A DNA stretch of 33,716 bases from Candidatus Vecturithrix granuli (GTDB taxonomy: Bacteria; Moduliflexota; Moduliflexia; Moduliflexales; Moduliflexaceae), in NCBI GenBank assembly GCA_000739535.1, contig DF820473.1, positions 246,056 to 279,771 on the forward strand, written 5' to 3'. Below, piece after piece: positions 5,681 to 33,620 of the stretch; position 1 is the first letter of the stretch; every line of letters starts with the position of its first letter. The translations under genes and the position numbers were made by a program. The notes under the pieces are model-generated. The model was not told the DNA's origin. It worked only from the letters and a program-made list of their open reading frames with translations, and searched no databases.

Positions 5681-6266
5681 TAAACCCCCGGCTTTGCCGG
5701 GGAGACTGTCCAACGTTTGACTTTTCCGGCAGTCGTCCATGACACTGGTTGGTGACCGCCTAAGTTCATCAACACAGGAGGACGTCATGGACGAGTACCG
5801 AAGTTTAGCGCATACGACATGGACCTGTAAATACCATGTGGTATGTATTCCCCAATATCGGCGTAACGTGCTGTATGGCAAGTTACGAAAGGAACTGGGA
5901 AGCATCTTTCATGAACTGGCTAAGCCCAAAGAAAGGACGATTGAACACGGGGGGCTGTCCAGATCATGTGCATATGGTGATCTGGATTCCCCGCAATCTC
6001 TCTGGGCACGCGGATTTTTTGTCAGTATGGTCGGGGTGGATGAAGAAACCATCCGAGAGTATATCCGTCACCAGGAGGAAGAGGACAAACGACTGGATCA
6101 ATTGGATTTGTTCCGGTCGAAAGGCTCTTCACATGAAGATGACAAAGACCAATTGCTGCCATAAGCCGTGACACACATGAGAACACCGTAACCCCCTTTG
6201 GGGGGTTCCAATCTTCACCGCCTTGGGCGGTTCACAGTTTCAAGCCTCCGGTTTTACCGGAGGTTA
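5681..6266 (+). mobile_element. Degenerate IS200/IS605-family element
   Basis: The element is bounded by subterminal hairpins at 5686-5702 (CCCCGGC stem, TTT loop) and 6245-6263 (CCTCCGG stem, TTTT loop), with a further hairpin at 6190-6207, as expected for a Y1-transposase element that inserts single-stranded ends without target duplication. It encodes a TnpA remnant. It sits inside the Pro-Thr linker of the scaffold gene, whose coding pattern resumes on either side. The outer limits are estimates to within about 10 bases. Confidence 0.75.
5787..6164 (+). pseudogene. tnpA: IS200-type Y1 transposase TnpA, degenerate
   Basis: The start follows GGAGGACGTC. The N-terminus (MDEYRSLAHTTWTCKYHVV) and C-terminus (LWARGFFVSMVGVDEETIRE, then YIRHQEEED with the presumed catalytic Tyr) match IS200-type TnpA in the first frame. 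The HUH nickase motif PDHVHMVIWIP is in the second frame, reached by a shift in the G6 run near 5949. About 35 residues normally found between the HUH strand and FWARG are missing around 5990-6000. The enzyme is therefore inactive, although frame 1 stays open by chance. Confidence 0.8.
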
Positions 6267-8440: not shown

Positions 8441-9478
8441 TTATTCCTGTCGTTTCAATTCATAGGTTGTGCTGCCTAAGCCTATTTTTTGACCGTAATC
8501 GAGGGTATGGCGGCCGCGGCTGAACACTTTTTTGCCGTTGCGCTGGTCGAGCAAATCCAGACAGGCTTGATCAAGCGCGACCGGATCAGTAGATGCTAAA
8601 ATTCCCAGGTCTGCGACGACCGATTTCATCGAACGGCCGTTGCAGTCGCAATTTTTCGTGATGTTCAGGGCAAACGAGAGGTAGATGTTGTTTTTCTCTT
8701 TGTGTGCCGCTAACGCATATTCAGCCAGCTTTTCATAAAAGGTGGTTGAAAATGAGGCCCGCAGCGGATTTAAACTAATCGCGCCAAAGGGACAGATGGC
8801 AAGACAGGAGGCGCAGCCGATGCACTTTTTGCTGTTGATGCGGGGCAGCCAGCCGATCTGAATGGCCTCGGCCGGACAATGGGGCACACAGGTGCGGCAT
8901 TTCTTGCACGTGAGAGGATTGATCAGCGGAATGGCGTTGGCATGCTGCTCAAGTTTGCCGCCTCGCGCCGCGCAGCCCATGGCCAATTGTTTGATCGCGC
9001 CGCCGAACCCGGCCAGCAGATGGCCTTTGAAATGACTGATGACGATCATTTGTTTTTGTTGGGCAATTTCTGTGCCAATCTTGCAGGTGCGGAAATGCTT
9101 CTGGTTGATTTCTACCTCTTCATAATCCTCGCCATGCTCGCCATCGGCAATGATGATTGGAATCTGCGTAAAGCCGTGCTCTTTGGCGAGCCTGATATGC
9201 GTGGTTCTGGTCGTGCGTTCGCCGCGATACAGCGCATTGGTCTCAATAAAACTGCTTTGCACCTGTTTTCCGTGAAGATACTCAATGACACCCTCAAAAT
9301 TCTGTGCGCCGATAAAGGTGGTATTACCCTTTTCGCCAAAATGCACTTTTAATGACACGTGCGGTTGCAGCGTTATCTGTTCTTTTTCAACGACCGTTTG
9401 CAGCAAATTTTTCGCTGTGGCGCGAATCTTTGCGGTCTCATGATACGATGCTATCGGGGTAAAATATACCTGTTGCAT
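8441..9478 (-). CDS. DUF362 protein with two 4Fe-4S clusters
   Basis: The start at 9478 follows GGAGGAAACCCA; an in-frame ATG at 9523 lies in the family A repeat and is not credible. The 345-residue protein has the DUF362 fold (VSLKVHFGEKGNTTF near residues 41-55, then SHFKGHLLAGFGGAIKQLAMG at about 148-168). A ferredoxin-like insert follows, with C191, C194, C197, C201 and C219, C222, C225, C229, each in the CxxCxxCxxxCP pattern for a 4Fe-4S cluster. No signal peptide is visible, so it is cytoplasmic and probably a redox protein of unknown substrate. It lies 89 bases downstream of the MbfA-like gene on the same strand, and a family A repeat fills most of that gap. Confidence 0.85.
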   Translation of the reverse strand: MQQVYFTPIASYHETAKIRATAKNLLQTVVEKEQITLQPHVSLKVHFGEKGNTTFIGAQNFEGVIEYLHGKQVQSSFIETNALYRGERTTRTTHIRLAKEHGFTQIPIIIADGEHGEDYEEVEINQKHFRTCKIGTEIAQQKQMIVISHFKGHLLAGFGGAIKQLAMGCAARGGKLEQHANAIPLINPLTCKKCRTCVPHCPAEAIQIGWLPRINSKKCIGCASCLAICPFGAISLNPLRASFSTTFYEKLAEYALAAHKEKNNIYLSFALNITKNCDCNGRSMKSVVADLGILASTDPVALDQACLDLLDQRNGKKVFSRGRHTLDYGQKIGLGSTTYELKRQE

Positions 9479-9490
9479 TGGGTTTCCTCC

Positions 9491-9562
9491 GAAAATGTAG
9501 CGCGAAACTCCAGTTTCGCGCACCAGTATTCCGCCCGCGAAACAGAAGTTTCGCGGTACATG
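9491..9562 (-). repeat. Family A palindromic repeat, copy 3
   Basis: Twin hairpins (GCGAAACTTCTGTTTCGCGG and GCGCGAAACTGGAGTTTCGC on the minus strand) occupy the spacer between the MbfA-like and DUF362 genes. The 3' edge, CTACATTTTCGGAGG, supplies the ribosome-binding site of the DUF362 gene. The repeat has therefore become its 5' leader. Confidence 0.87.
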
Positions 9563-16900: not shown

Positions 16901-17024
16901 ATTTGAACAATGGGTCAATAAACTCCTGCCGGGTCTGAGTTTCGTTATAGTGACTGTGTTTATACGCTTCAATATTGCGGTCGAATCGTTCGACAAGTTG
17001 CAGTATTTTGTCCGGAACTGACAT
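13959..17024 (-). CDS. Type IIG restriction-modification enzyme
   Basis: This 1021-residue single-chain enzyme has an N-terminal PD-(D/E)xK nuclease (P75-D76 ... E90-A-K92 in APDYSFRIGG...FFVEAKKPS). A helical connector follows, then an amino-methyltransferase domain with motif I LDPACGSGSFLLGAYQYL near residue 407 and the catalytic NPPY at 572-575 (adenine N6-methylation). The C-terminal target-recognition region is of the Eco57I/TaqI type (LPSKFLSTDYGLPLRNLL; LGLINSKLL). It should cut unmodified DNA and methylate host sites, so no separate R or M gene is needed. The start at 17024 has AGGAGAG 5 bases upstream, provided by a family A repeat. DUF4160 and DUF2442 follow in the same operon. Confidence 0.9.
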   Translation of the reverse strand: MSVPDKILQLVERFDRNIEAYKHSHYNETQTRQEFIDPLFKSLGWDMDNEQGYAEAYKDVVHEDAIKIGRATKAPDYSFRIGGVRKFFVEAKKPSVDIKEDIHPAYQLRRYAWSAKLALSILTDFEEFAVYDCRVKPEKTDKASKARTLYLTYRDYLQRWDELAAIFSREAILKGSFDKYAESHKEKRGTTEVDVAFLQEIERWRDLLARNIALRNPRLTRRELNFAVQRTIDRIIFLRICEDRGIENYGKLMALQNGTQIYQRLLHLFYQADDRYNSGIFHFKSEKERTEAPDTLTPDLTIDDAVLKDMLKNLYYPDSPYEFSVLPADILGQVYEQFLGKVIRLTAGHQAKVEEKPEVKKAGGVYYTPTYIVEYIIKHTVGELLKRSLSGVEVQKSPKQAEKLTILDPACGSGSFLLGAYQYLLDWYHDAYLNENPEKWSKGRQPRLYQNDRGEWKLTIEERKRILLNHIYGVDIDSQAVEVTKLSLLLKVLEGEDEQTLNSQMALFQQRVLPDLSNNIISGNSLIGSDFYEGQQLLLLDEEEMYRVNAFDWEKEFPEIMQKGGFDAVIGNPPYIRIQTLKEWIPLEVEFYKRKYVAASKGNYDIYVVFVECGLGLLNLSGKLGFILPSKFLSTDYGLPLRNLLSSQRVVERIVDFGHEQVFQNATTYTCLLFLAKTQPKEFSYINVSPHKLFEVSQSQQISSQSIDNTQWVFVSNQGNVLLQKLSAKSQPFIHLFSEMSRGISTGADDIFCLVETKGQLFTKHGSHVEVESEILRRPLYATDFTRYLFQPQNKERIIFPYHVSENRSDPIEESVLRKKYPNTYQYLSNHRKKLEARKQCRIWYGYSAPRSLHIHERADIIVPLLANHGLCVPAPQKSTHFCMMASAGFSIRLKHEIHPMNPFYILGLINSKLLFWNLRLISNKFRGGWITCTKQYFAQLPIRIINFSNPADKAYHDKIVELVERMLDLHKQLHAAKTPQAQTLLQRQIDAADRQIDRLVYELYGLTEEEIEIIEDKREK

Positions 17025-17036
17025 AGCTCTCCTATG

Positions 17037-17153
17037 AAAATGTCGCGCGAAACTCCAGTTTCGCGGCTGTCAAAAATGCGCGAAACTGGAGTTTCGCGCT
17101 ACATCTGATGTTCATTACGTCGGGTGAACGCCCGCTCATGACAACTCCTTTGA
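17037..17153 (-). repeat. Family A palindromic repeat, copy 4 (full length)
   Basis: Read on the minus strand: AAAGGAGTTGTCATGAGCGG, a CACCCGACGTAATGAACATC segment, then hairpins GCGCGAAACTCCAGTTTCGC and GCGAAACTGGAGTTTCGCGC, ending ACATTTTCATAGGAG. The final AGGAG is the ribosome-binding site of the restriction-modification gene. The unit also contains a 36-codon frame from ATG 17139 that stops just before the gene start. Confidence 0.88.
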
Positions 17154-20166: not shown

Positions 20167-20253
20167 GAAACTACAGGAATCGCATATAGGAAAGAATGTG
20201 ATCTCAGGTGTGGCAGAAATCAATTCTTTCTTATATGCGATTCCTTTAGTTTC
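20167..20253. repeat. 87-bp inverted repeat with 30-bp arms
   Basis: Arms 20167-20196 and 20224-20253 (core GGAATCGCATATA) match at 28 of 30 positions around a 27-base loop. The right arm abuts a family A copy. The convergent-gene spacer 20076-20415 consists mainly of these two repeats. Confidence 0.87.
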
Positions 20254-20372
20254 AAAGGAGGTGTCATGAGTGGGTCACTCACCCGACGCAATGAAAATCA
20301 GATGTACCGTGAAACTCCAGTTTGGCGGGCGGATGACTGGTGCGCGAAACTGGAGTTTCGCGCTACATTTTT
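20254..20372 (+). repeat. Family A palindromic repeat, copy 5 (full length)
   Basis: Plus-strand order: AAAGGAGGTGTCATGAGTGG, CACCCGACGCAATGAAAATC, hairpins with GTGAAACTCCAGTTTGGC and GCGCGAAACTGGAGTTTCGC, ending CTACATTTTTAAAGGAG. It lies between convergent genes, so no start codon uses its GGAG end here. It has one base more than copy 4 after the internal ATG, so a common reading frame is not conserved. Confidence 0.86.
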
Positions 20373-20415: not shown

Positions 20416-21441
20416 TTAAAACACTTCCACCGCGGTAGCTTTGAAGTGCAGATAGACCGGTATTCCGGGGTGAAGCTCCATCTCATGATAGGAATCTTTA
20501 GTAATTTTAACCTCAAAACTCTCTCCTGCCTGTACCTTTAAATCAACGTGATCGCCAGCGTCAATAATATGAGTAATATGGCCCTGCATATTATTGCGCA
20601 TGCTCGATTCAAAGGGATGTTTGGAAAGCGTGATGTTTTGGGCGGCAATTGCGACCGTCGCATGACCTTCATGCGGAGCGATCACCTCAAATTGCACGAG
20701 CGGCGTCGCAAAACAGTACAGATCGTTTTTGCGGGTAATCGTCCCATGAAAGATATTGTTGAGCGGCGATTTGACCGGACGCCCTTGAAAAAGATGAATG
20801 ACTTCATCAGCAATCCGATACGCCTGATCCTGATAGTGCGTGGTAAAGACCACGGTTGTGCCATATTGCGCGCGGATATTGTAGATAATATTTTCCAAAA
20901 TTGCCCGGTGTTTTTGATCGACATTGGCTGAAAATTCATCAAGAAATATCACGGCAGGCCGAATGGATAAGGCCCGGGCAATGGCGACGCGCTGCGTCTC
21001 TCCGCCGGAAAGCTGTCGGGCTTTGCGTTTTTGAAACCCATCTAAGCCGACGAGCTGCAAACATTCTTTGACTCGTTTTCGACGCATCTCGCGATCCATT
21101 TTGCGGATTCGCAGACCATAATCCACGTTTTTTTCAACGGTGGTGTCAAACAACAATGGATCCTGGTGGACCAGCGTGACAGAAGCCCGTAATTCCGCAA
21201 GACCGTCTTCGGCAGGGAAAATTTCTCGGCCGTTGAACACGATTGTGCCCGTGATAGGCTTCCTGAGCAAAGTTAAGGCTTCAAACAACGTGGTCTTGCC
21301 GGCCCCATTCGGGCCGTAGAGACAATAAATTTTCCCTTGCTGAAGCGTCAGGTGCTCAATATCGAGCACAAGCGTCTCATCAAACCGTTGGGTTAACTGG
21401 TGAATTTCGAAAATTGAATTTGATAAAGTTGATGGTGTCAT
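20416..21441 (-). CDS. tupC: Tungstate ABC transporter ATPase TupC
   Basis: This 341-residue ATPase has Walker A GPNGAGKT (43-50), Q-loop VHQDP, signature LSGGETQR, Walker B VIFLDEF with an ensuing D-loop (SANVD), and the switch His in TTHYQDQA. The C-terminal 110 residues form a TOBE/MOP-like domain (about 235-341), typical of oxyanion importers. It energises uptake of tungstate (or molybdate) through the TupB permease. It is third in the tupA-tupB-tupC order and starts 92 bases after tupB ends. A family C repeat lies in that gap. Confidence 0.86.
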   Translation of the reverse strand: MTPSTLSNSIFEIHQLTQRFDETLVLDIEHLTLQQGKIYCLYGPNGAGKTTLFEALTLLRKPITGTIVFNGREIFPAEDGLAELRASVTLVHQDPLLFDTTVEKNVDYGLRIRKMDREMRRKRVKECLQLVGLDGFQKRKARQLSGGETQRVAIARALSIRPAVIFLDEFSANVDQKHRAILENIIYNIRAQYGTTVVFTTHYQDQAYRIADEVIHLFQGRPVKSPLNNIFHGTITRKNDLYCFATPLVQFEVIAPHEGHATVAIAAQNITLSKHPFESSMRNNMQGHITHIIDAGDHVDLKVQAGESFEVKITKDSYHEMELHPGIPVYLHFKATAVEVF

Positions 21442-21447
21442 AAGCCA

Positions 21448-21474
21448 CTACAAGAATGAAGAATAAACAAGAAT
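21448..21474. repeat. Family C motif, single arm
   Basis: CTACAAGAATGAAGAATAAA and 7 further bases match the arms of the 7489-7588 inverted repeat. It lies between tupB and tupC, just upstream of the tupC start. Confidence 0.6.
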
Positions 21475-21532
21475 TTTCTGGCTCTGGAAATTCGTTTCTT
21501 ATTCCCAGAACAACAATCCGTCAATAAAAGCC

Positions 21533-22222
21533 TTACCGTTTACGCTGTAAAAATCGCAAAAGGAAATTTACGCCCAGGGCGACGCTCATGAGAATAATTC
21601 CGAGAGCCAGGCCAAATCCAAACTCCCCTTTGCTGGTTTCCAGGGCAATAGCCGTTGAAAGGTTGCGAGTATAGCCCTTAATATTACCTCCCAACATCAT
21701 GGCTGCGCCCACTTCTCCGATGACCCGGCCAAAACCGGTGACAATCGCGGCGATGACTGCAAATCTCGCCTCTGACAGCATGGTCATGGCCGAACGGAAT
21801 GGACCCGCGCCTAACACAATGGCGGTGCGCCGGATGCGGGGATCGACGCCCTGGGAGGCAGAAATTGTCAACGCGATGATCGTCGGCGTCGCCAAAATAT
21901 ACTGCCCCATTACCATGGCTGTCGGCGTAAAGAGCAGTTCTAAGGATCCAAAGGGGCCCTGTCGAGAAATCAGACCATAGCCCAATAAGCCGATGACCAC
22001 GGTTGGCAAAGCCATCAACGTATTAAGTAATGTAATAATGAAACCGCGGCCTTTAAATGTAGAAATCCCAATTACAAACCCTAGAGGGACTCCTGAAAGC
22101 GAGGCAAAAAAAATCGCTGCGGTTGAGACTTTGATTGATGTGAAGGTAATCTTCAATACCTCGCTATCCAGAGCGATAATTAAACGTACCGCTTCTGCGA
22201 AAGCCTGTCCAAAATATCCCAT
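21533..22222 (-). CDS. tupB: Tungstate ABC transporter permease TupB
   Basis: This 229-residue integral membrane protein has about five to six helices. The binding-protein-dependent transport EAA-type loop is near residues 130-170 (RRTAIVLGAGPFRSAMTMLS, then AIVTGFGRVIGEVGAAMMLG). It matches TupB/WtpB-like permeases in length and in the VIGLLGYGLISRQGPFG segment. It forms the membrane channel for tungstate delivered by TupA. It lies 144 bases downstream of tupA, separated by two hairpins that may reduce read-through and so set lower expression of the permease and ATPase than of the binding protein. Confidence 0.87.
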   Translation of the reverse strand: MGYFGQAFAEAVRLIIALDSEVLKITFTSIKVSTAAIFFASLSGVPLGFVIGISTFKGRGFIITLLNTLMALPTVVIGLLGYGLISRQGPFGSLELLFTPTAMVMGQYILATPTIIALTISASQGVDPRIRRTAIVLGAGPFRSAMTMLSEARFAVIAAIVTGFGRVIGEVGAAMMLGGNIKGYTRNLSTAIALETSKGEFGFGLALGIILMSVALGVNFLLRFLQRKR

Positions 22223-22242
22223 ACACAGTTGTTGAATATACT

Positions 22243-22275
22243 AAAAACCGGGTTTCTTGAAGAAACCCGGTTTTT
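22243..22275. terminator. Hairpin terminator between tupA and tupB
   Basis: AAAAACCGGGTTTCTTGAAG starts a perfect 14-bp stem with T-rich tails on both strands, so it could work in either direction. It is one of two tandem related hairpins in the tupA-tupB gap. Confidence 0.7.
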
Positions 22276-22316
22276 CGGATCGCATAGATTATTGAACTTC
22301 AATTATCGAACATACT

Positions 22317-22350
22317 AAAAACCAGGTTTCTTGTAGAAAGCTGGTTTTTT
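22317..22350. terminator. Second hairpin terminator between tupA and tupB
   Basis: This is a slightly diverged repeat of the preceding hairpin (ACCAGGTTTC...GAAAGCTGGT, TTTTTT tail). Both copies share the flank ATACTAAAAACC, so they are a duplicated unit. A broken form with the same sequence appears at 33640. Confidence 0.7.
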
Positions 22351-22366
22351 GGGCAAACAGCACAAA

Positions 22367-23185
22367 CTATTTAATCACCAGTGGATAAAACAGCGGCTCC
22401 CCAAATTTATCCGTGCCATACTCTTTAATAATGGCCTGCCCCTCCGGTGAAGTGACCCAACCGATAAAGGCCATGGCTTTCAGGTAATTGGCATGCGGGA
22501 ATTTCGCCGGATTCACGGCAATCACTCCATAAGGATTGTAGAGGATTGGATCGCCTTGGAAAAGGACTTTGAGATCCATTTTTTCCGTAAACGCCAGATA
22601 GGTGCCCCGATCAGACAGAGTATAAGCTTGCTTGTCGTTTGCAATCGTCAAAACGGCCCCCATCCCCTGACCAGCTTCCATGTACCACTTGCCTTCCGGC
22701 TTGATTCCTGCGCTTTGCCAGACTTCTAACTCTTTTTGATGGGTTCCGGAATCGTCGCCGCGGGAGATAAATTCCGCCTGGGCGTCAGCAATTTTTTTCA
22801 GGACTTCTGCCGCGCTTTTGGCCTCTTTCACTCCGGCAGGATCGGCTTCCGGGCCAAGAATGATGAAATCGTTATACATCACATCCCGCCGATTCACACC
22901 ATTCTCCTCTGCAACGAATTTATCTTCCGCTGCGCGAGCATGCACAAACACGACATCCACGTCGCCATTGGCCCCTAATGCGAGGGCCTTTCCTGTCCCG
23001 ACTGCGACGACGTCAACTTTCACGTTGAATTTTTCTTCAAAAGGCGGTAATAACACACTCAGTAAGCCGGAATTTTCGGTGCTGGTTGTGGTGGACATTT
23101 TCAGGCGTTCCTGAGCGAACCCGATATTAGCGACTAAAAGTAATGTGAGTAAAATCAACAGACTGATACGAATATAATGCTTCAT
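22367..23185 (-). CDS. tupA: Tungstate-binding protein TupA
   Basis: I chose ATG 23185; a TTG at 23194 is the longer alternative. The N-terminal ISLLILLTLLLVANIGFAQ is a signal peptide with cleavage near the A-Q. The mature part begins with the tungstate-binding signature STTTSTENSGLL and continues with VDVVFVHARAAEDKFV and SRGDDSGTHQKE, all diagnostic of TupA rather than ModA. It captures tungstate in the periplasm for TupBC. Tungsten points to aldehyde oxidoreductases or formate dehydrogenases in this anaerobic-type genome (inference). No clear ribosome-binding site or molybdate/tungstate cofactor riboswitch was recognised upstream. Confidence 0.9.
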   Translation of the reverse strand: MKHYIRISLLILLTLLLVANIGFAQERLKMSTTTSTENSGLLSVLLPPFEEKFNVKVDVVAVGTGKALALGANGDVDVVFVHARAAEDKFVAEENGVNRRDVMYNDFIILGPEADPAGVKEAKSAAEVLKKIADAQAEFISRGDDSGTHQKELEVWQSAGIKPEGKWYMEAGQGMGAVLTIANDKQAYTLSDRGTYLAFTEKMDLKVLFQGDPILYNPYGVIAVNPAKFPHANYLKAMAFIGWVTSPEGQAIIKEYGTDKFGEPLFYPLVIK

Positions 23186-23194
23186 ACTGGGCAA

Positions 23195-23519: not shown

Positions 23520-24509
23520 ATGAAAAATAGCGATCATATACGGATAAGCCTCATCATGTTCTGGATTTGGAGTATTATGCTATTCATCCCTGCGGTTGGT
23601 TGGAGCATGATTGCCTCGAATGTTCCGGGGATTACGATCTTTGGCAGTCAGGATGATGCGTTTCACCTCTCTTTTGGACCATCGTTCCAGATAGAAACCG
23701 GGGACATGACCTACACCATTCAAGGTCCGGAGGATGGAGGCTGGAAGAGTCGTCTGAAATGGGATCTGGAAAAGTTATTCTATCTTGGGGGGTTAGCCTC
23801 AGTCCGGTTTCGCGGAAAATATGAATTGACGGCGGGTGTCTGGAAAGCCGTCGCCGGAGGAGATGATGGCACGATGCAAGATGATGATTGGTTTTATGGG
23901 GACTATGGAAGTTCTCTGGCGGTGCAATCCCTGTCGGATCTGGAAACCGATGGATTTCACTTTAATGTGAATTTGCGCTATCATTTCAGGCTGCGTGAAG
24001 GGCTGACTCTTAGTCCTGTTGCCGGGTATTCCTATACTAAATGGGACTGGGAAACGCTGGAGGGATACCAGACAAGCATCGATCCGCTTGCTTTTTATGT
24101 GGGTCCCCTGGAAGCTGGTAGCATTATCTATCAGGAAGAACTGCATGTACCATACCTGGGATTGGCCTTCTCAGGATTAATAAAATCCTCTGGGTTTGGC
24201 TTCAATGTGTACGCGCTCTTGAGTTTGATCGTTCAGTGTTACGACGAGGACGATCATACCTTGCGTTCAAAGTTAATCAAGGGCGATGCGGATGGCTCAT
24301 TTCTTTCTCTGGGCGGGGATCTGCGTTGGGAAATCACCAAATCCTGGTCTATCGCCGGCAATGTCAACTATACTCGCTATGATTTGAACGGGGAACAAGA
24401 ACAATATTATTATGCTGGCGATTATGCTGACACCCTCTTTACTGGCATTGATTTGGAAATCGAGGGTAGCCAGACCTATTTCGGCCTGATGGCCGTTTAT
24501 GAATTCTAA
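23520..24509 (+). CDS. Omptin-like outer-membrane protease/beta-barrel
   Basis: This 329-residue protein has a signal-like N-terminus (SLIMFWIWSIMLFIPAVGWS) and then alternating amphipathic strands, ending in aromatic YEF as outer-membrane barrels do. The layout follows omptins. D121, D123 and W124 in QDDDWF correspond to OmpT D83, D85 and W86. D244 and H246 in DEDDHTL correspond to the OmpT D210/H212 pair. HVPYLGLAF matches the conserved MPYIGL strand before that pair. If correct, it is a surface endopeptidase of the A26 family. Overall identity is low, and a non-proteolytic omptin-fold porin remains possible. It is probably a monocistronic gene divergent from tupA. Confidence 0.62.
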   Translation: MKNSDHIRISLIMFWIWSIMLFIPAVGWSMIASNVPGITIFGSQDDAFHLSFGPSFQIETGDMTYTIQGPEDGGWKSRLKWDLEKLFYLGGLASVRFRGKYELTAGVWKAVAGGDDGTMQDDDWFYGDYGSSLAVQSLSDLETDGFHFNVNLRYHFRLREGLTLSPVAGYSYTKWDWETLEGYQTSIDPLAFYVGPLEAGSIIYQEELHVPYLGLAFSGLIKSSGFGFNVYALLSLIVQCYDEDDHTLRSKLIKGDADGSFLSLGGDLRWEITKSWSIAGNVNYTRYDLNGEQEQYYYAGDYADTLFTGIDLEIEGSQTYFGLMAVYEF

Positions 24510-24583
24510 CGACATTTGAGAGCGCAAATGCCCTGGAACGCCAATGCCTTAGTCCTACTGTATTAGAATTGTTTTGTTCGTAG

Positions 24584-24622
24584 TGAGTTTGTCGAATCAT
24601 GAACAAACCTTCGACAAACTCA
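24584..24622. terminator. Hairpin repeat downstream of the omptin-like gene
   Basis: Perfect 13-bp arms TGAGTTTGTCGAA (24584-24596) and TTCGACAAACTCA (24610-24622) surround a 13-base loop. No T-tract follows. It could act as a terminator or be a dispersed palindrome. Confidence 0.55.
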
Positions 24623-24728
24623 CGATTGAACATAGACAAAGCATCTTTCAAACTCTTCCTAATTGTAGTATCTTGTTAATAGTAATACACTTCATATTCA
24701 TTGATTTGAATATCGTAAGGAGCATTGT

Positions 24729-27410
24729 ATGTCAAGATTCCATTTACGCCGGATTATCCCAACATTCCTGAAAAAAACCTCTTTCCAGACAATTCTCATT
24801 CTGGTATTTGCTGCACAAGTGGTTGCTACAGCGTGTCTGACAGGCTATCTTGCCTTTCGGAATGGACTCCTGTCGGTCAATGACGTGGCGAATCAATTAC
24901 GGAGTGAAATGACTGCTCGTATTACTCAGCATTTGCATACTTATTTGGATACCCCCCATCTGATTAATACACTCAATATCAATGCGATACACCTCAAACA
25001 GATCGATATCATAGATTTTTCAACCTTAGAGCATCAATTCTGGAAACAAAGTCAGATTTTTCCTTCCGTCAGTTATATATATTTTGCCAGTGAACGCACC
25101 GGAGATTTTATTGGCGTAAAACGACTGTCAAACGACACATTTCATCTTAGAAACGGGAGCGGACCAACCTTTTCGGTTTTTACCACGGATGCTCAAGGAA
25201 ATCGAGGGGAATTATTGTCTGTAATGCCTTATGTTGATTCGCGAACCCGTCCCTGGTATCAAGCAGCAAAAGAATCGGGAAAAGCGATTTGGAGTCCGGT
25301 CTATACGTGGGTGGGAAGCCCGAATATTAGTATAGACGCGGTCTGCCCGGTTTATAATGATTCGGGAACGTTAGAAGGGGTGTTCGGCGTCTCTTTAATT
25401 CTTGCAGATATCAACGAATTTTTGAAAAATTTAAAAGTGGGTACCTCAGGACAAACCTTTATTATGGAACAATCGGGTTTGTTAATCAGTACCTCTTCCA
25501 CTGAAACCGGCATGCTTGTCAATGGAGAGACTGCTGAACGCGTTCATGCAACTGAAAGCGAAAACCCGTTTATACGATTAACTGTCCAATATTTGAAGGA
25601 GTCTGGAAGCGATCCTTTACCTCATGAGAAACCGACACCGGTAAGTATTAAACACATTCGTTCCTTTGATCTAGTAGAAATTGATGGAAAACGCCAATTT
25701 GGGCAGGTGACGCCGTTTCAGGACAAATGGGGATTAGATTGGCTAATCGTCGTGCTTATTCCTGAAGATGAATTCATGATGCAAGTCTATGCGAATACCC
25801 AGCAAACATTTATCCTAAGTCTGTTAGCCCTCTTTGTTGCTGTCGGAATTGGCGGGATCACCGCTCGTTGGGTCATCCGACCACTAGCCCGCTTGAATAT
25901 TGCTGCTCAGGCTCTGGCAAGAGGTGAATGGGAACAGCATGTGCTGATCGATCGGGAAGATGAAGTCGGCCAGTTAGCGAAATCATTTCACACAATGGCA
26001 ACGCAATTGCGAGAATCCTTTGCGGAATTAGATCAGAATGAGCAGCAATATCGTTTTCTGGTTGAACATGTGGCGGATGGAATCGGAATTTTTCAGAAAG
26101 AACGATTGGTATTTGTCAATGATGCCTTTGCTGCTCTGTTAGATTTTCCTCAAGATCAATTGATCGGGAAAATTCCAGAAGAGTTATTTGGGAAGGATTA
26201 TTTGTCTCGATATAAAAAGATCCAAAAACAACTTCAGGTTGGGGTTCTTCACCCGGACTGGCAAATATTCGAATTTGCTCTCATGAAAAATGACCAGAAA
26301 ATGTGGTTAGAAGGCCGTCATAAGATGATTTTATGGGAGGGGGCTCAGGCCATCCTGGTCAGTATCCGCGATGTTACGATACGAAAACGTCAGGAAGAAG
26401 AAAACAAAGCCACTCAGAAAAAACTCCGCCAGGAAAACATCCGACTCAGATCCACCATAAAAGATCGCTATAAATTTGAAAACATCATTGGGAAAAGTTT
26501 TGCTATGCAGGAAGTCTATGAATTAGTGCTGAAAGCCGCTGCGACCGACACGAATGTGGTTATTTACGGAGAATCCGGCACAGGCAAAGATCTTGTTGCC
26601 CAAACGATCCACAGGTTAAGTGATCGTCAGAAAATGACCTTTGTGCCTGTCAATTGCGGGAGCATTCAGGAAACTTTATTTGAAAGCGAATTCTTTGGGT
26701 ATCGGAAAGGCGCATTTACAGGAGCATTGCGGGATAAACCCGGTTTTTTTGATGCTGCCCATAATGGAACGCTCTTTCTCGATGAAGTCGGGGAATTGGG
26801 CCTGAATATGCAAGTCAAATTGTTACGAGCGATTGAAGGCGGCGGTTATACGCCTGTTGGGGACCAAACAGTGAAACATGCCAATGTGCGCATTATTGCC
26901 GCAACCAATAGAAATTTATCAGTACAAATTCAAAGAGGAGAAATGCGCTCAGATTTCTTTTATCGGATCAATGTGATTACGATCAATGTTCCTCCTTTAC
27001 GTGAGCGAAGAGAGGATATTCCCCTGCTAGTTGAATATTTTTTACACCTGTATGGAAACAAGTCTCCCATCCAAACGCTTCCGGGACATATTCTGGAAGC
27101 CCTGTACAACCATGATTGGCCTGGAAATGTTCGTCAATTGCAAAATGTGTTACAGCGTTATCTGACCCTCAAATCTCTTGATTTTGGAAATGGGGTTCAT
27201 TATCCAGAAATTTCTCGTAACACTCAGGATAATAGTAGGGGCTTTACTCCTACTACTACTCATCTGCATGAAGCCATCGCAGAATTTGAAAAACATTTTA
27301 TTCTCAGCATGTTAACCCAAAATCAGGGGCGCAAAAATAAAACTGCCGATATACTAGGTATTCCCGCCAGAACACTTCGTCGAAAACTCAGCAAGTATCA
27401 TCCTAAATAA
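24729..27410 (+). CDS. Membrane Cache-HAMP-PAS sigma-54 activator
   Basis: The start follows AAGGAG. Order of parts: membrane helix 1 (about 20-42); extracytoplasmic double-Cache sensor (about 50-340, with RPWYQAAKESGKAIWSPVY); membrane helix 2 (about 353-376); HAMP (about 375-425); PAS (about 440-550); coiled linker; AAA+ sigma-54 activator domain with Walker A GESGTGKD (about 614-621), GAFTGA loop at 661-666 and LFLDEVGEL Walker B; and a C-terminal Fis-type helix-turn-helix (about 868-893). It should sense an external ligand and directly activate sigma-54 RNA polymerase without a separate kinase. The next genes on the same strand carry matching upstream sites and a -24/-12 promoter, making them its likely targets. 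Confidence 0.93.
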   Translation: MSRFHLRRIIPTFLKKTSFQTILILVFAAQVVATACLTGYLAFRNGLLSVNDVANQLRSEMTARITQHLHTYLDTPHLINTLNINAIHLKQIDIIDFSTLEHQFWKQSQIFPSVSYIYFASERTGDFIGVKRLSNDTFHLRNGSGPTFSVFTTDAQGNRGELLSVMPYVDSRTRPWYQAAKESGKAIWSPVYTWVGSPNISIDAVCPVYNDSGTLEGVFGVSLILADINEFLKNLKVGTSGQTFIMEQSGLLISTSSTETGMLVNGETAERVHATESENPFIRLTVQYLKESGSDPLPHEKPTPVSIKHIRSFDLVEIDGKRQFGQVTPFQDKWGLDWLIVVLIPEDEFMMQVYANTQQTFILSLLALFVAVGIGGITARWVIRPLARLNIAAQALARGEWEQHVLIDREDEVGQLAKSFHTMATQLRESFAELDQNEQQYRFLVEHVADGIGIFQKERLVFVNDAFAALLDFPQDQLIGKIPEELFGKDYLSRYKKIQKQLQVGVLHPDWQIFEFALMKNDQKMWLEGRHKMILWEGAQAILVSIRDVTIRKRQEEENKATQKKLRQENIRLRSTIKDRYKFENIIGKSFAMQEVYELVLKAAATDTNVVIYGESGTGKDLVAQTIHRLSDRQKMTFVPVNCGSIQETLFESEFFGYRKGAFTGALRDKPGFFDAAHNGTLFLDEVGELGLNMQVKLLRAIEGGGYTPVGDQTVKHANVRIIAATNRNLSVQIQRGEMRSDFFYRINVITINVPPLRERREDIPLLVEYFLHLYGNKSPIQTLPGHILEALYNHDWPGNVRQLQNVLQRYLTLKSLDFGNGVHYPEISRNTQDNSRGFTPTTTHLHEAIAEFEKHFILSMLTQNQGRKNKTADILGIPARTLRRKLSKYHPK

Positions 27411-27447
27411 TCTGGCCCTGTTTGTTTCTTGCTCAAAAATTCGATTC

Positions 27448-27469
27448 GAGCGGTCATTTATGTCCGCTC
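27448..27469 (+). promoter_or_regulatory. Upstream operator 1 for the sigma-54 activator
   Basis: This 22-bp palindrome has arms GAGCGG and CCGCTC and inner CAT/ATG, matching its own complement at 18 of 22 positions. It lies about 200 bases before the expected transcription start. It matches operator 2 at 16 of 22 positions. Confidence 0.6.
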
Positions 27470-27534
27470 GGATCAAGACGACCTATTGAAAGATTTCTTT
27501 TTTTTTCAATGGGTTAGAGAATATCTGCTATTTT

Positions 27535-27556
27535 TAGCGGTCAATTGTATCCGGTT
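27535..27556 (+). promoter_or_regulatory. Upstream operator 2 for the sigma-54 activator
   Basis: AGCGGTCA, a 7-base centre, then TCCG repeat the pattern of operator 1, 87 bases further on (about eight helical turns) and about 120 bases before the expected transcription start. This is the usual distance for enhancer sites. Confidence 0.55.
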
Positions 27557-27641
27557 TTTTCGTGTTCTGCATTCCTCTCTGTATTGAAAAAATATGGTAT
27601 AACCTTCATAAACATCATCAGTTAAATTATATGTCTTTTTT

Positions 27642-27656
27642 TGGCATTATTCTTGC
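27642..27656 (+). promoter_or_regulatory. Sigma-54 (-24/-12) promoter
   Basis: TGGCAT, five bases, TTGC: the GG and GC elements have exact sigma-54 spacing, with one deviation from TGGCAC. Transcription should start near 27668, leaving a leader of about 80 bases before the DUF1446 gene. The upstream gene encodes a sigma-54 activator. Confidence 0.82.
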
Positions 27657-27748
27657 TTTATAAACAGGCAAGCGAGTCAGCCATCAATTTTGAAAAGCGC
27701 AATACAATCATTTTATTTGATTTTCGTATATCATGGGAGGAAAATAGC

Positions 27749-29113
27749 ATGAAAAACGCATTACGTATTTTATGTCCGAATGGACATCTGGGATTTGCTC
27801 CAACAAAAGAAGAGAGTTTTTGGATTGGCGCAGAAACCCAACCGGATTATTATTGCTGCGATTCAGGGAGTGATGATATTGGTCCTGTGCCTTTAGGAAG
27901 CGATATCAGTGTGAGCTTTTATGAATGGCAAACTCACGATTTAGAACTCATGCTGCTGGCATCCAGGAAACAAGGAGTGCCGATGATTATTGGGTCTTCT
28001 GGAGATACCGGTACAAACAGCCGGGTAGATATGTATGTTGACATCATCAAGAATTTGGCCAAAAAACATAAGCTTGCGCCTTTTAAGCTCGTCTATTTTT
28101 ACTCTGAGGTGAGTAAAGAGTATCTTCAACAAAAAATGCAGCAAGGGATCGCTATAGAAGGACTGGATGGGCGAGAAAATCTCACCCCTGAAGAATTGGA
28201 ACACACGGAGAGAATTGTGGCAGTGGCGGGCGTACATCCGTTTATCAAAGCATTGGAGATGGGAGCGGATGTGATTATTGGCGGTCGTAGCAGCGATGCG
28301 GCCGTATTTGCCTCAGCCGCCTTATATGAAGGATTTCCGGAAGCGCTCTCCTATTACCTTGGCAAAGTGCTCGAATGCGCCTCTTTTTGTGCAGAACCCT
28401 ATATGGCAAAAGAATCCGTGATTGGAACGATAACGGATGAGGATGTCAAAGTCACAGCGATGCATCCCCAACAGCGATGTACAATTGCCTCAGTCGCCGG
28501 ACATGCGATGTATGAGCGTTCCAATCCGTTCTATGAATATTTTGCCGGGGGGATGCTCGACATGACCCACTGTCAATATGAGCAATATGACGAAAAAACG
28601 ACACGAATTACCAATCCTCTTTTTGTGCCTATTGATGGAAAAACCAAGGTCAAGCTCGAAGGGGCTGGCAAAATTGGAGAACGCTACATCGGTATCGTTG
28701 GGGTCAGAGATCCTTACACCATTCAGAATATTGATAAAGTGATTGAATGGGCCAGAAGCCAGGTCGCAGAACGATTCTCAGAGAGCGAATATCAGTTATA
28801 CTATAAAATTTATGGCAAAAATGGTGTAATGGGAGACCTGGAACCGATCAAAGAGATCCGCTCACATGAGTTGTGCATTGTGGTTGAAGGAATTGCTCCG
28901 ACAGAAAAAATAGCTGAAGAAGTCACCCTGATCGGTGCACGGCAGATTTTTTACGCCCGACTACCTGAAGTGAAAGGCACCGCCGGTACGGCCGCCTTTG
29001 TCATTGATGGCGTGCTGTCTGCGCCGCCTGCCTATCAATGGACAATGAATCATGTTGTCCCGGTCGATGACCCGATGGAACTTTTCACAATGCACGAACT
29101 CACGATTGAATAA
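27749..29113 (+). CDS. AtuA-like DUF1446 protein
   Basis: The start at 27749 has GGGAGG 8 bases upstream; a longer in-frame start overlaps the sigma-54 promoter and is rejected. The 454-residue protein has the DUF1446/AtuA pattern: CDSGSDDIGPVPLG near the N-terminus, IIGSSGDTGTNSRVD, then GADVIIGGRSSDAAVFASAA and HELCIVVEG. AtuA was named from the acyclic terpene utilisation cluster of Pseudomonas, but most members have unknown substrates. It is cytoplasmic, with no signal peptide. It is first in the sigma-54-driven cluster and 14 bases from the DUF4387 gene. The two families are regularly paired, and they are presumed to act together on a carboxylic acid or CoA ester (inference). Confidence 0.88.
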   Translation: MKNALRILCPNGHLGFAPTKEESFWIGAETQPDYYCCDSGSDDIGPVPLGSDISVSFYEWQTHDLELMLLASRKQGVPMIIGSSGDTGTNSRVDMYVDIIKNLAKKHKLAPFKLVYFYSEVSKEYLQQKMQQGIAIEGLDGRENLTPEELEHTERIVAVAGVHPFIKALEMGADVIIGGRSSDAAVFASAALYEGFPEALSYYLGKVLECASFCAEPYMAKESVIGTITDEDVKVTAMHPQQRCTIASVAGHAMYERSNPFYEYFAGGMLDMTHCQYEQYDEKTTRITNPLFVPIDGKTKVKLEGAGKIGERYIGIVGVRDPYTIQNIDKVIEWARSQVAERFSESEYQLYYKIYGKNGVMGDLEPIKEIRSHELCIVVEGIAPTEKIAEEVTLIGARQIFYARLPEVKGTAGTAAFVIDGVLSAPPAYQWTMNHVVPVDDPMELFTMHELTIE

Positions 29114-29127
29114 TAGGAGGATTTGCT

Positions 29128-29451
29128 ATGAAGACCAAAAAACTTGTTGAACTCGCCAAAACGATCCGAAGCAAAAACGCCGGTACGGATAAAATTACTT
29201 TCGATATTATTTTTCGAGAACGAGAAAACTATGAACTCGTTAAGAAGTCCAGGGTATTAACCAGGCAAACGATAGCACAATTATATGCGATTCCGGAAGA
29301 ACGCATCAGCGATTTTGTGGAATTTGATCCGGCGTTTGCGATCAAATTTACCATCTATCGCCAGAAGCCCAGCGGAAGCCCTGGTGAAACCGACGTCTTC
29401 GGATGTCAACAATATCCTCCTTTGCTAGACGTTGAAGTACCTGTTGTATAA
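29128..29451 (+). CDS. DUF4387 protein, partner of the AtuA-like protein
   Basis: This 107-residue protein opens KLVELAKTIRSKNAGTDKIT, then FDIIFRERENYELVKKSRVL, the DUF4387 signature, and continues with IPEERISDFVEFDPAFAIKF. The length is normal. The start follows TAGGAGG. It probably forms a complex with the DUF1446 protein just upstream; in other bacteria the two occur as neighbours or as one fused chain. The biochemical role is unknown. No membrane segment or Cys cluster is visible. Confidence 0.88.
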   Translation: MKTKKLVELAKTIRSKNAGTDKITFDIIFRERENYELVKKSRVLTRQTIAQLYAIPEERISDFVEFDPAFAIKFTIYRQKPSGSPGETDVFGCQQYPPLLDVEVPVV

Positions 29452-29526: not shown

Positions 29527-30930
29527 ATGTCAATTCAACTGATTATTATTCTTCTGTATCTCCTGGCAACAATTGGAATCGGTCTTTATGCCAGGAAAAA
29601 ATCTGTAAGTTCAGATGCTTTTCATGGGGTAGGCCTGGGAGTACTGATGTGTGTGGCCGCCGGAACCGGCGAATGGTTAGGGGGAACATCTACCACTGGA
29701 GTGTCTGAATATGGGTATATGTTTGGCGTATCCGGCGCCTGGTACACGATTGCGAATGGTATTGGAGTCATGGTACTTGGATTGTTTTTTGCAAAACTCT
29801 ACAGAAGTCTGGATACCGTCACGGTTCCAGGCGTACTAGGCAGTTTTGTCGGACAACAAGCTCGAACGATTGCCAGCATTTTGCTGATTTTCGTGATGAT
29901 CGCTGTCGGTACAGCGCAGATTATTGCAGCGGGAACCCTGGGAGTTACGGTGCTTGGCCTGAATTTTACCATCTCTGTTATTGCGCTTGGGATCGGATTT
30001 ATCATCTACACGCTGGCAGGCGGGATGACCGCTGTGGGATATACCAATATCATGCATTTATGCGCCATGTACGGTGGGGTATTCTTTGCTGTCATGTATG
30101 TCATTTCCGGGGCCGGAGGGTTTCAGCAAGTTCATCAGCAACTGCCCGCCAGTTATTTTAGTTTTACGACGATTGGGATGCCTAAAGTATCATCATGGCT
30201 GATTGCTTCAATTCTGGGGGCCTGTACAGCCCAGGCAGGAATCCAGCCGATTCTCGCGGCTAAAGACGTACATGTTGCCAAAAAATCGGCGATTATCACG
30301 GCGTTTGTCGTCGCGCCGTTTGGCATCTTCACGGCGTTTCTGGGGATGGTTGCGAAGATCAAATTCGACGCTCTGGCAAACGCGAAACTCGCTCTGCCTA
30401 CCCTGTTAATGAATTTACCTCCCATTATTGGCGGCATTGTGCTTTCAACGATTCTGGCCGCGATTTTATCAACAGTCTCGCCCATTATTTTAGCCTGCGG
30501 TACGATGTTTACAAAAGATATCTATCAAAAATTGATCAATCCATCGGCTACTGATACCCAAATGTTGAAGATCTCGCGTCTTACGACCGGTCTGGCAGGA
30601 GTCATCTGTATTCTTCTGGCCCTGATCCTTTATGGAAGCACAGCAATCCTGGATATCGTCTATTTTGCCTATACGTTACGAGGGTCCCTGTTCGTCGTGT
30701 TATTGTTTGCGATTTACTGGAAAAAAACTTCAACAAAAGGAACGGTCTGGGCGATGCTGTTAACCGCCTTTACTGGGTTTCTCTGGATTCTCTTTAAAAA
30801 GATCACGGGGCATTATCCGATTCATCCGATGCTGACTGAAACCTATATCTCTGTGATCGTCGCCTTTATCAGTACCTTAATGCTCAGCACCTTTTTTCCA
30901 GAAGATCACCTATCGCCAAAAACCAGGTAA
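29527..30930 (+). CDS. Sodium:solute symporter (SSS family)
   Basis: This 467-residue protein has about 12-13 membrane helices. SSS-family landmarks include the early AARKKSxSSDAFHGVGLGV-like segment, GTGEWLGGTSTTGVSEYGY, TVTVPGVLGSFVG, and later ILAAILSTVSPIILACGTMFTKDIY. It should import an organic solute with Na+. Substrate specificity cannot be read from sequence, but its position after the DUF1446/DUF4387 pair under the sigma-54 promoter suggests it brings in their substrate. The start follows TAAGGAAAAACCCAAC. A family B element begins directly after its stop codon. Confidence 0.87.
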   Translation: MSIQLIIILLYLLATIGIGLYARKKSVSSDAFHGVGLGVLMCVAAGTGEWLGGTSTTGVSEYGYMFGVSGAWYTIANGIGVMVLGLFFAKLYRSLDTVTVPGVLGSFVGQQARTIASILLIFVMIAVGTAQIIAAGTLGVTVLGLNFTISVIALGIGFIIYTLAGGMTAVGYTNIMHLCAMYGGVFFAVMYVISGAGGFQQVHQQLPASYFSFTTIGMPKVSSWLIASILGACTAQAGIQPILAAKDVHVAKKSAIITAFVVAPFGIFTAFLGMVAKIKFDALANAKLALPTLLMNLPPIIGGIVLSTILAAILSTVSPIILACGTMFTKDIYQKLINPSATDTQMLKISRLTTGLAGVICILLALILYGSTAILDIVYFAYTLRGSLFVVLLFAIYWKKTSTKGTVWAMLLTAFTGFLWILFKKITGHYPIHPMLTETYISVIVAFISTLMLSTFFPEDHLSPKTR

Positions 30931-31046
30931 TAAGTACTTGAGCAAGAATACGCTGAAACTCTCAGGAGTGTCAAAGCTCTGCTTTGACAGCGAAAGCAGA
31001 GCTTTCGCACTCCGGTTTTATAAAAATACTTCTGCTCAAGTACTTA
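30931..31046. mobile_element. 116-bp MITE with family B core (copy 4)
   Basis: Perfect 14-bp terminal repeats TAAGTACTTGAGCA (30931-30944) and TGCTCAAGTACTTA (31033-31046) enclose the family B twin hairpin at 30965-31013. The core is nearly identical to that at 13719-13767, but the ends are entirely different from AAGCTGTTTTAAAAGT. No clean target duplication is seen. It begins at the base after the symporter stop codon and separates it from the C26 gene. Confidence 0.85.
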
Positions 31047-31096
31047 CAATCGTATTCAGCGTGTATGAATAGCCATAAGAACTGAGGAAAGATGTT

Positions 31097-31951: not shown

Positions 31952-33343
31952 ATGCAAACCATTGGAATCTTCCCACTAGAGGTCTTTTATCTTTTTTTGC
32001 TTTTAGGATTTGTGTTTCTCATTTTTGTGCTTTTCAAAAGGCCGATCTATGAAGCCATGTTTCTGGCCTTTGGGTTTAGTATTGTCATGACAGGTCGCTA
32101 TGATATTTTTATGAAATATCTGCTGTATCCTGCGACGCAAAGTAGTTTGTTTTATATCATCGTGGCCTTTCTGACGCTGGCATACGTGTTGAGTAAAACC
32201 AGAGTGGTTGAGAAATTCATTAACATTATCTTAGCTATTTTTGGAGGACTTCCCGGTGGGGCCGGATATGTCGCCCTGTTCTCAAGCAGCGGATTAGCGA
32301 TGATGACCGGAACCGGACCGGGAAATGTCGCTGCCACAGGCGTGTTTACGATTCCGGCCATGATTAAAAGCGGATTTTCGCGTCCTTTAGCCGCAACAAC
32401 AGAGATGGCCGCCAGCATGTTAGGCAATCAAATGGGGCCAGGCCTGAATATTGTGGGGTTCGGAATTCTGGTCAATCTCTTTCCTGATAAAAATTACGAC
32501 TTAGGAAAGTTTTGGGTGGCGCTGTGGATCGTTGGGGGATGGTTAGTCATTCACCGCCTGATTACTCTGATCGTCCTCTGCAAAATTCAGGGGGTCAAAC
32601 CAATTCCCAAAGAAGAACGCCCGAAAATAGGGGAAGCCTTTAGACGGGGATGGGATGCCTTATTATTGCCTTTCTTTGTGCTCTTTCCGATCATTATATC
32701 TTCAAAATATTCAGCCTTACTGGAATCTCGCTTTGGAGTTGACGGAACAAAAGCCTTTTCAGGAACAGTACTGATGTTTTCAGTCGGGGTATGTATGGTG
32801 TATTCCCTATTTATGGGAAGACAGGCGGTTAAAGAATCAGAAGGAGGATTTTCGCTGCAAATCATCTTTAATATGTTCCGAAATAGCCTCCGGTCGGTTG
32901 TGCCTGTGGGAGCAACCATTTATTTTGCTTACGCAATCTCTCTGGTTTTTAAGGAAGTGGCTATGGCAGAAGCAATTACAGCCTGGGTCATAGGATTTGG
33001 CCTGGGGAAATTGGGATGGGCATTGCTCATCACCCTGTTTACAGCCCTATTAGGCATGGTGCTGCCAGGGTCATCGCAGGTCGCTCTTCTGGGTGCTGCA
33101 ATTATTTCAACCGGGGCGGCGGTGGGTATAGATCCCTTCCGGGTTGCGGCTGTCATGCCGACTTTAACAGGAGTTATGGAGGGAATGACGCCTCCTTTAG
33201 CACTGGCGTTATTCACGGCAATGGGAATTGCCAAATCTGAATTCTGGCCATCGGCTAAATTAGCGTATGTCTGGATTGCCGGGCAGATTGTATTTTCGGT
33301 GCTACTGTTAACAGGAATTCTTCCTATCTTTATTCAGGGGTGA
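31952..33343 (+). CDS. DctM-like (TRAP large permease type) transporter
   Basis: This 463-residue protein has about 11-12 membrane helices. It has two pseudo-symmetric re-entrant motifs: SSGLAMMTGTGPGNVAATG with FTIPAMIKSGFSRPLAATTE in the first half, and VLPGSSQVALLGAAIISTGA with MEGMTPPLALALFTAMG in the second half. This is the DctM/ion-transporter superfamily pattern. TRAP systems also need a periplasmic DctP and a small DctQ, and neither is seen; the next gene is a two-helix membrane protein. It is thus either a binding-protein-independent member or depends on a distant partner. GAGAAGAGG precedes the start. It lies 132 bases after the C26 gene; that gap shows nothing notable. Confidence 0.75.
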   Translation: MQTIGIFPLEVFYLFLLLGFVFLIFVLFKRPIYEAMFLAFGFSIVMTGRYDIFMKYLLYPATQSSLFYIIVAFLTLAYVLSKTRVVEKFINIILAIFGGLPGGAGYVALFSSSGLAMMTGTGPGNVAATGVFTIPAMIKSGFSRPLAATTEMAASMLGNQMGPGLNIVGFGILVNLFPDKNYDLGKFWVALWIVGGWLVIHRLITLIVLCKIQGVKPIPKEERPKIGEAFRRGWDALLLPFFVLFPIIISSKYSALLESRFGVDGTKAFSGTVLMFSVGVCMVYSLFMGRQAVKESEGGFSLQIIFNMFRNSLRSVVPVGATIYFAYAISLVFKEVAMAEAITAWVIGFGLGKLGWALLITLFTALLGMVLPGSSQVALLGAAIISTGAAVGIDPFRVAAVMPTLTGVMEGMTPPLALALFTAMGIAKSEFWPSAKLAYVWIAGQIVFSVLLLTGILPIFIQG

Positions 33344-33347
33344 TGCT

Positions 33348-33620
33348 ATGAAAAAAACATTGATTGAATTATGTAAAACAATATTTGGAGTATGTATGTT
33401 TTACGCCGTATTTATAGGAGCCGTGGCAGCCGTTCTGTATGTATTAGGGTTTATTGCGGGCGGCTCTTTTGGAGCAAGCTGTGCCATGTTCGGGGCGAAG
33501 ATTATGAAAACAGGAATTCCTATCTCAGCCTTAGGGTCGTGTATAGGGATGCTTGGGTTCTATATTGAAGGGACTCATGAATTGACAATGAATCAAAAAC
33601 ATCAAGAAACAACAGATTGA
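33348..33620 (+). CDS. Small two-helix membrane protein
   Basis: This 90-residue protein has hydrophobic segments at about 11-37 (TIFGVCMFYAVFIGAVAAVL onward) and about 52-73 (ISALGSCIGMLGFYI), and a polar tail. I do not recognise the family. It starts 4 bases after the DctM-like gene stop, so the two are translationally linked. It may act as a small partner subunit of that transporter, in the place a DctQ subunit would occupy, although DctQ has four helices and is longer. It is the last gene of the cluster within the window. Confidence 0.65.
   Translation: MKKTLIELCKTIFGVCMFYAVFIGAVAAVLYVLGFIAGGSFGASCAMFGAKIMKTGIPISALGSCIGMLGFYIEGTHELTMNQKHQETTD

Follow-up and report, generated by a model that had tools for sequence, protein, structure and literature searches.

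The one-component enhancer-binding proteins (EBPs) with a neighbouring sigma-54 promoter described from Desulfovibrio vulgaris and Clostridiales carry an AAA+ domain with the GAFTGA motif and a Fis-type helix-turn-helix (HTH), adjoin a sigma-54-dependent transport or catabolism operon, and have an inverted-repeat upstream activating sequence (UAS) ahead of the promoter (PMC4641369, PMC6615313). In D. vulgaris, a sigma-54 promoter adjoins 10 of the 13 one-component EBP genes; in the case of DVU0569 this promoter is situated downstream of the activator gene (PMC4641369). Sensing is mainly through cytoplasmic PAS or GAF domains: most one-component EBPs use PAS and carry no membrane segments, and most EBP regulatory domains of Clostridiales are without transmembrane regions (PMC6615313). 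The window analysed here, a stretch of 33,716 nucleotides from Candidatus Vecturithrix granuli, forms the end of contig C11 in a genome of 8.38 Mb, and includes a locus with the same AAA+, HTH and operon features, a probable UAS and the promoter-downstream arrangement of DVU0569, but in which a membrane dCache-HAMP sensor precedes the PAS domain. Since transmembrane regions are absent from most of the Clostridiales regulatory domains, the dCache-HAMP fusion is the less usual part of this locus.

The activator gene (24729-27410, + strand), two candidate enhancer sites, a -24/-12 promoter and the operon downstream of it are taken to form a self-contained one-component sigma-54 circuit, for which we estimate a probability of about 0.77. 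In its outline, the circuit proposed in the initial annotation is very probably right, the second palindrome being weaker than was claimed. It should be regarded as a well-made example of a known regulatory design, not as a new kind of system; its interest is that it provides a regulatory unit, compact and open to testing, for a phylum that has been poorly sampled.

Domain organization of the activator

The product of 24729-27410 is a membrane-bound bacterial EBP of 893 amino acids, as judged by Pfam matches above the cut-offs, hydropathy and motifs, in agreement with the Cache-HAMP-PAS-AAA+ order first read from the translation. From the N to the C terminus it consists of a transmembrane segment (residues about 18-40), an extracytoplasmic dCache_1 domain (the part matching this family is encoded by 25227-25724, + strand, and is similar to the chemoreceptor dCache structures 6mni, 3c8c and 5ave), a second transmembrane segment (about 356-382), HAMP (378-429), PAS (440-549), AAA+ (586-816; PF00158, E 4.4e-63) and a Fis-type HTH_8 (850-890; PF02954, E 2.6e-10). 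The dCache fold binds diverse small molecules. The AAA+ domain contains Walker A (GESGTGK at 614), GAFTGA (661) and Walker B (LFLDE at 682), and the HTH, encoded by 27276-27398 (+ strand), includes the recognition helix region PARTLRRKLSKYH. RpoN is encoded by one gene in the genome (one PF04552 match, on C19). With the Walker motifs, GAFTGA, the C-terminal Fis-type HTH and a genome-encoded RpoN, the protein belongs to the bacterial EBPs; with a sensor flanked by transmembrane segments outside the cytoplasm, HAMP, and the output on the same chain, it belongs to the membrane one-component regulators. A domain search of the 893-residue chain detected neither a histidine kinase nor a receiver domain. 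By its predicted architecture the protein is a sigma-54 activator carrying its own extracytoplasmic sensor. The earlier description of a fused sensor replacing a two-component pair is sound, yet the arrangement is not special, one-component activators beside their own promoter being common.

Assignment to a named regulator was rejected in every case: PrdR (NCBIfam NF041552; cut-off 795 bits) scored 330 bits, and NifA, NorR, NtrC and other named equivalogs were all below the NCBIfam cut-offs. PrdR is the nearest named model, aligned with the PAS-AAA+-HTH region over residues 429-891, but the N-terminal 428 residues of the activator are outside the match.

Membrane Cache-HAMP activators are also found at L068 in the same genome and at L124 in a genome of the same family (G001), so that the present one is not unique. 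Both share the order membrane Cache-HAMP-PAS-AAA+-HTH, but they differ from the window protein in a single Cache (sCache_3-HAMP-PAS-PAS) instead of dCache and in the recognition helix. At L124 (G001:C23:58000-68000, reverse strand, reverse-complement 5298-5700) the activator gene precedes the -24/-12 element TGGCACAACGATTGCA and an entire DctPQM TRAP operon, making it a parallel circuit. The pair ATACGCAACAATTGCAT and ATACGCAAAAATTGCAT at L124 looked suggestive and was rejected as not significant by pair score (p = 0.37). A literature search found no description of a dCache-HAMP EBP, which is weak evidence of absence. A membrane-tethered AAA+ activator raises the mechanical question of how a membrane-fixed ring reaches enhancer and promoter DNA.

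The -24/-12 promoter and its genomic recurrence

The activator gene is followed by an AT-rich intergenic gap of 231 bp, which holds both candidate sites and the element TGGCATTATTCTTGC (27642-27656, + strand). Located ahead of a gene, this element conforms to TGGCAY-N5-TTGC and is correctly spaced. Taken by itself, the window would give it little weight, since a search allowing one mismatch found 6 matches against 5.9 expected. Across the genome, however, the strict pattern TGGCAYN5TTGCWT was matched at 21 places, as against 2 for the reversed control, and therefore most of these matches are probably real promoters. The exact-spacing element noted previously ahead of the DUF1446 gene was confirmed, and TGGCATTATTCTTGC is, by pattern, a credible sigma-54 promoter element. 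Although the mechanical open reading frame of the DUF1446 gene opens with TTG 27641, it is the ATG at 27749 that has a Shine-Dalgarno sequence ahead of it (GGGAGGAAAATAGC-ATG); the promoter is therefore intergenic, and the leader would be about 81 nt long if transcription starts near 27668. From the stop codon of the activator gene to ATG 27749, no sigma-70-like match was detected on the strand of the promoter.

In four of the 21 strict cases the element follows the stop codon of an activator gene at a distance of 202-232 bp, as against about 0.02 expected; these are the loci of the window, L062, L063 and L064. L062 (C11:235000-240000) is on the same contig, about 36 kb upstream; its activator is of the response-regulator type, and here too the promoter comes after the activator gene. 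Two further such layouts, with slightly relaxed elements, are present at L073 and L083, and altogether five other activators of this genome are located 187-211 bp upstream of a -24/-12 promoter. The activator-then-promoter design is thus recurrent in this genome.

Candidate enhancer sites

Site 1 (CGAGCGGTCATTTATGTCCGCTCG, 27447-27470, + strand) is palindromic over 24 bp, 10 of the 12 pairs being matched, and site 2 (TAGCGGTCAATTGTATCCGGTT, 27535-27556, + strand) is identical to it at 16 of 22 positions, with the starts 87 bp apart. The centres are 183.5 bp (site 1) and 96.5 bp (site 2) upstream of the TGG of the -24 box, positions within the range of about 80-200 bp that is expected of a tandem UAS. 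The motif, GCGGTCA-N3-ATGTCCG, is unlike the common TGT-N10-12-ACA type.

The sites were tested against shuffles of the 231 AT-rich bases and, separately, against 287 tiles of real window DNA. A pair matching at 16 of 22 positions was found in 13% of the shuffles (p = 0.13) and is not unusual by itself, while a palindrome of the strength of site 1 was found in 1.5%. The palindrome together with a second copy appeared in 0.1% (p = 0.001), and the combined score gave p = 0.0015. The tiles of real DNA are less favourable than the shuffles, since 14 of the 287 reach the score of the sites; the six high-scoring places listed are long inverted repeats, mostly of one interspersed family. The genome scan that had been recommended was made with sequence patterns in place of a matrix, and the two-site pattern matched exactly only here; sites 1 and 2 are thus outside the interspersed repeat family described below. 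At C17:157922 and C20:648213 the motif was also matched, but inside coding frames, and these two were discarded as probable chance matches. Apart from this locus and the one of the closest paralogue, the motif is essentially absent from the genome. The RNA-family search found no match. Sites 1 and 2 are a probable enhancer pair for the local activator, as far as arrangement and sequence can indicate.

Sites behind the paralogue and distant relatives

The closest relative of the activator is a paralogue at C17:456475 (L073/L090), 60% identical over residues 397-893, in which a receiver and PAS take the place of the membrane sensor. Its recognition helix (PPRTLRRKLEKYH) is near-identical to PARTLRRKLSKYH of the window protein. 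Downstream of the paralogue gene are the paired sites ACCGGCCAGAAATGGCCAGC and AGCGGCCAAAAATGGCCGAT, 72 bp apart and centred 155.5 and 83.5 bp from the TGG of the -24/-12 element TGGCATGGGAGTTGC. On the better strand, AGCGGCCAAAAATGGCCGAT agrees with site 1 of the window at 16 of 20 positions, a match reached by none of 3000 shuffles, whereas six control regions behind other activators of the same genome reach 10-12. This layout with its paired sites is the best evidence for the enhancer sites, and the predicted pairing of recognition helix and site is backed by an independent paralogue.

Among distant relatives, the activator of Desulfobacter vibrioformis DSM 8776 (54% over AAA+/HTH) differs in its recognition helix; behind it, at L025 7045-7252, are the near-perfect palindromes GCGTGGCGATACGGCCACGC and CGTGGCGTTATCGCCACG, which are of the type CGTGGCG-N4-CGCCACG, unlike those of the window. 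The distance between the two is 79 bp, and their centres lie 175.5 and 96.5 bp from the TGG of TGGTGTAATTATTGC, nearly the geometry of the window; the strain is in culture, and this activator-promoter pair is convenient for testing. In a desulfobulbacean genome (L010), one very long palindrome and TGGCAAGGTTATTGC stand ahead of a small open reading frame and an SSF-like symporter gene. The layout thus recurs in several activators, with the site sequence varying together with the recognition helix, as would be expected of real activator-site pairs. At L063, L062, L064 and L083 the layout is present and the pair score detected no significant palindromic pair; the paired sites are therefore not universal in this layout.

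Proposed circuit and alternative explanations

We infer DNA binding, looping, the sensing domain and the extent of the transcript in the following model. The membrane-anchored activator would use its C-terminal Fis-type HTH to bind both sites, whose centres are about 97 and 184 bp ahead of the -24/-12 element. Upon a signal from Cache and/or PAS, for which the ligand may be a C4/C5 hydroxy acid, for example citramalate, the AAA+ domain would assemble, contact RNA polymerase-sigma-54 via GAFTGA by DNA looping, and open the promoter, driving at least the citramalate-lyase-like gene pair at 27749-29451 and the following symporter gene. A wider proposal, tentative and somewhat short of probable, is that this lineage has a class of membrane-integral sigma-54 activators in which Cache reads an external carboxylate directly, without phosphorelay, the output here being a citramalate-lyase-type operon and the membrane-anchored DNA looping starting from a dedicated enhancer pair about 100-180 bp from the promoter.

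Several observations weigh against the self-contained circuit. The intergenic region has no match to the IHF consensus. With 5 of 11 pairs matched, site 2 is a related but largely non-palindromic copy of site 1; the coordinates, the 16 of 22 identity and the 87-bp distance given in the initial annotation stand, but its "twin palindromes" were overstated. The genome comparison covered 385 genomes, with four from the same phylum, and revealed no close orthologous cluster, which left no footprinting of the sites between orthologues. The DUF1446 protein was found in 13 of the 385 genomes, copies outside this genome being 31-38% identical, and near these copies neither an activator nor a -24/-12 element was found. 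Finally, there are about 45 other activators in the genome which could act on the promoter.

This last number leads to a quite unlikely alternative, namely that the -24/-12 promoter is real and is driven by another activator, for instance one of the response-regulator type, while the adjacent membrane protein has its targets elsewhere. The L073 activator, which probably recognises a very similar motif, could cross-act, but its half-sites are GGCCA as against GGTCA in the window; the genome pattern scans detected the window motif at no other promoter, and adjacency of activator and promoter recurs with a specific geometry. Still less likely is it that site 1 serves the activator gene as a terminator or forms a hairpin in its mRNA, and that site 2 resembles it by chance, the true enhancers being elsewhere or weaker. 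Site 1 does start only 37 bp past the activator stop codon, the repeat alone is unremarkable among shuffles, and among the window tiles it is not rare for a hairpin-like one to score as high. No T tract follows site 1, however, and it is not among the results of the terminator scan, so that the terminator assignment was dropped as unsupported; moreover, the paralogue copy that matches at 16 of 20 positions is itself paired, and D. vibrioformis has the same pairing. A rather unlikely variant, compatible with the self-contained circuit, concerns the sensor: PAS may control the activator from the cytoplasm, with Cache and HAMP mainly anchoring or modulating it and not reporting an external ligand. 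Such control agrees with the presence of PAS, with the predominance of PAS-based one-component EBPs without membrane segments (PMC6615313), and with close paralogues of the type PAS-AAA+-HTH in which a receiver replaces Cache, but the complete TM-dCache-TM-HAMP unit (TM, transmembrane segment) has been kept and matches chemoreceptor sensor domains.

Downstream gene cluster

The genes after the gap are all on the + strand, and code for an AtuA/DUF1446 family protein (27749-29113; similar to citramalate lyase subunit A, PDB 9ERQ chain A), a DUF4387 protein (29128-29451; similar to subunit B, 9ERQ chain B), an SSF-family sodium:solute symporter (29527-30930), a class-I glutamine amidotransferase/peptidase C26 (31097-31819), a DctM-type TRAP large permease (31952-33343), and, near the contig end, a protein of 90 amino acids with no Pfam match (33348-33620). 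Families were assigned by Pfam, and for the first two genes also by structure-sequence matches. Co-transcription of the C26 and DctM genes with the preceding ones is uncertain, the gaps ahead of them being 166 and 132 bp, of which the first holds a palindromic repeat. Another repeat in the style of the interspersed one, GTGCGAAAGCTCTGCTTTCGCTGTCAAA and its complement, was observed in the SSF-C26 gap (30940-31060) and again where the contig ends (33680-33716).

Homologues of CmlA and CmlB are encoded together in the window, with both subunits of CmlAB (PDB 9ERQ, 9EVF) matched at E 5.6e-73 (A) and 6.1e-23 (B); the citramalate lyase function is taken from the names of the PDB entries and is putative for the window proteins. 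Since the DUF1446 protein and its neighbour match both citramalate lyase subunits, the cluster suggests an acid-catabolism operon. The likeliest outcome of its expression would be that citramalate, or a hydroxy acid like it, is taken up and cleaved, and the uptake and catabolic role assigned to the cluster earlier is supported. At this locus a CmlAB-like DUF1446/DUF4387 enzyme pair is linked with an uptake system that is apparently inducible. The DUF4387 gene is the only one in the genome, and a literature search found no paper with DUF4387. A second DUF1446/AtuA copy, 61% identical, is located at C10:197727-199088 of the same genome (G000; L057 7728-9095), with no activator, -24/-12 element or DUF4387 beside it; by eye, it follows a gene for a glycosyltransferase-like membrane protein.

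Other elements in the window

Upstream of the activator gene, the region 20416-23194 (- strand) codes for a tungstate-type ABC transporter (TupA-like and TupB-like proteins and an ATPase; below the equivalog cut-offs), which may hint at tungsten enzymes. It is followed by a gene for an omptin-like outer-membrane barrel protein (23520-24509), above the Pfam cut-off and far below the NCBIfam omptin cut-offs. Between this and the activator gene, an inverted repeat, GAGTTTGTCGAA...TTCGACAAACTC, is present at 24583-24624. The interspersed palindromic repeat, TGTAGCGCGAAACTCCAGTTTCGCGC...GCGCGAAACTGGAGTTTCGCGCTACA, was identified in the window near 2645-2990, 9430-9560, 16905-17120 and 20240-20370, and genome-wide; its 21-bp core, GCGCGAAACTGGAGTTTCGCG, has 337 matches in the genome against 0 in the reversed control.

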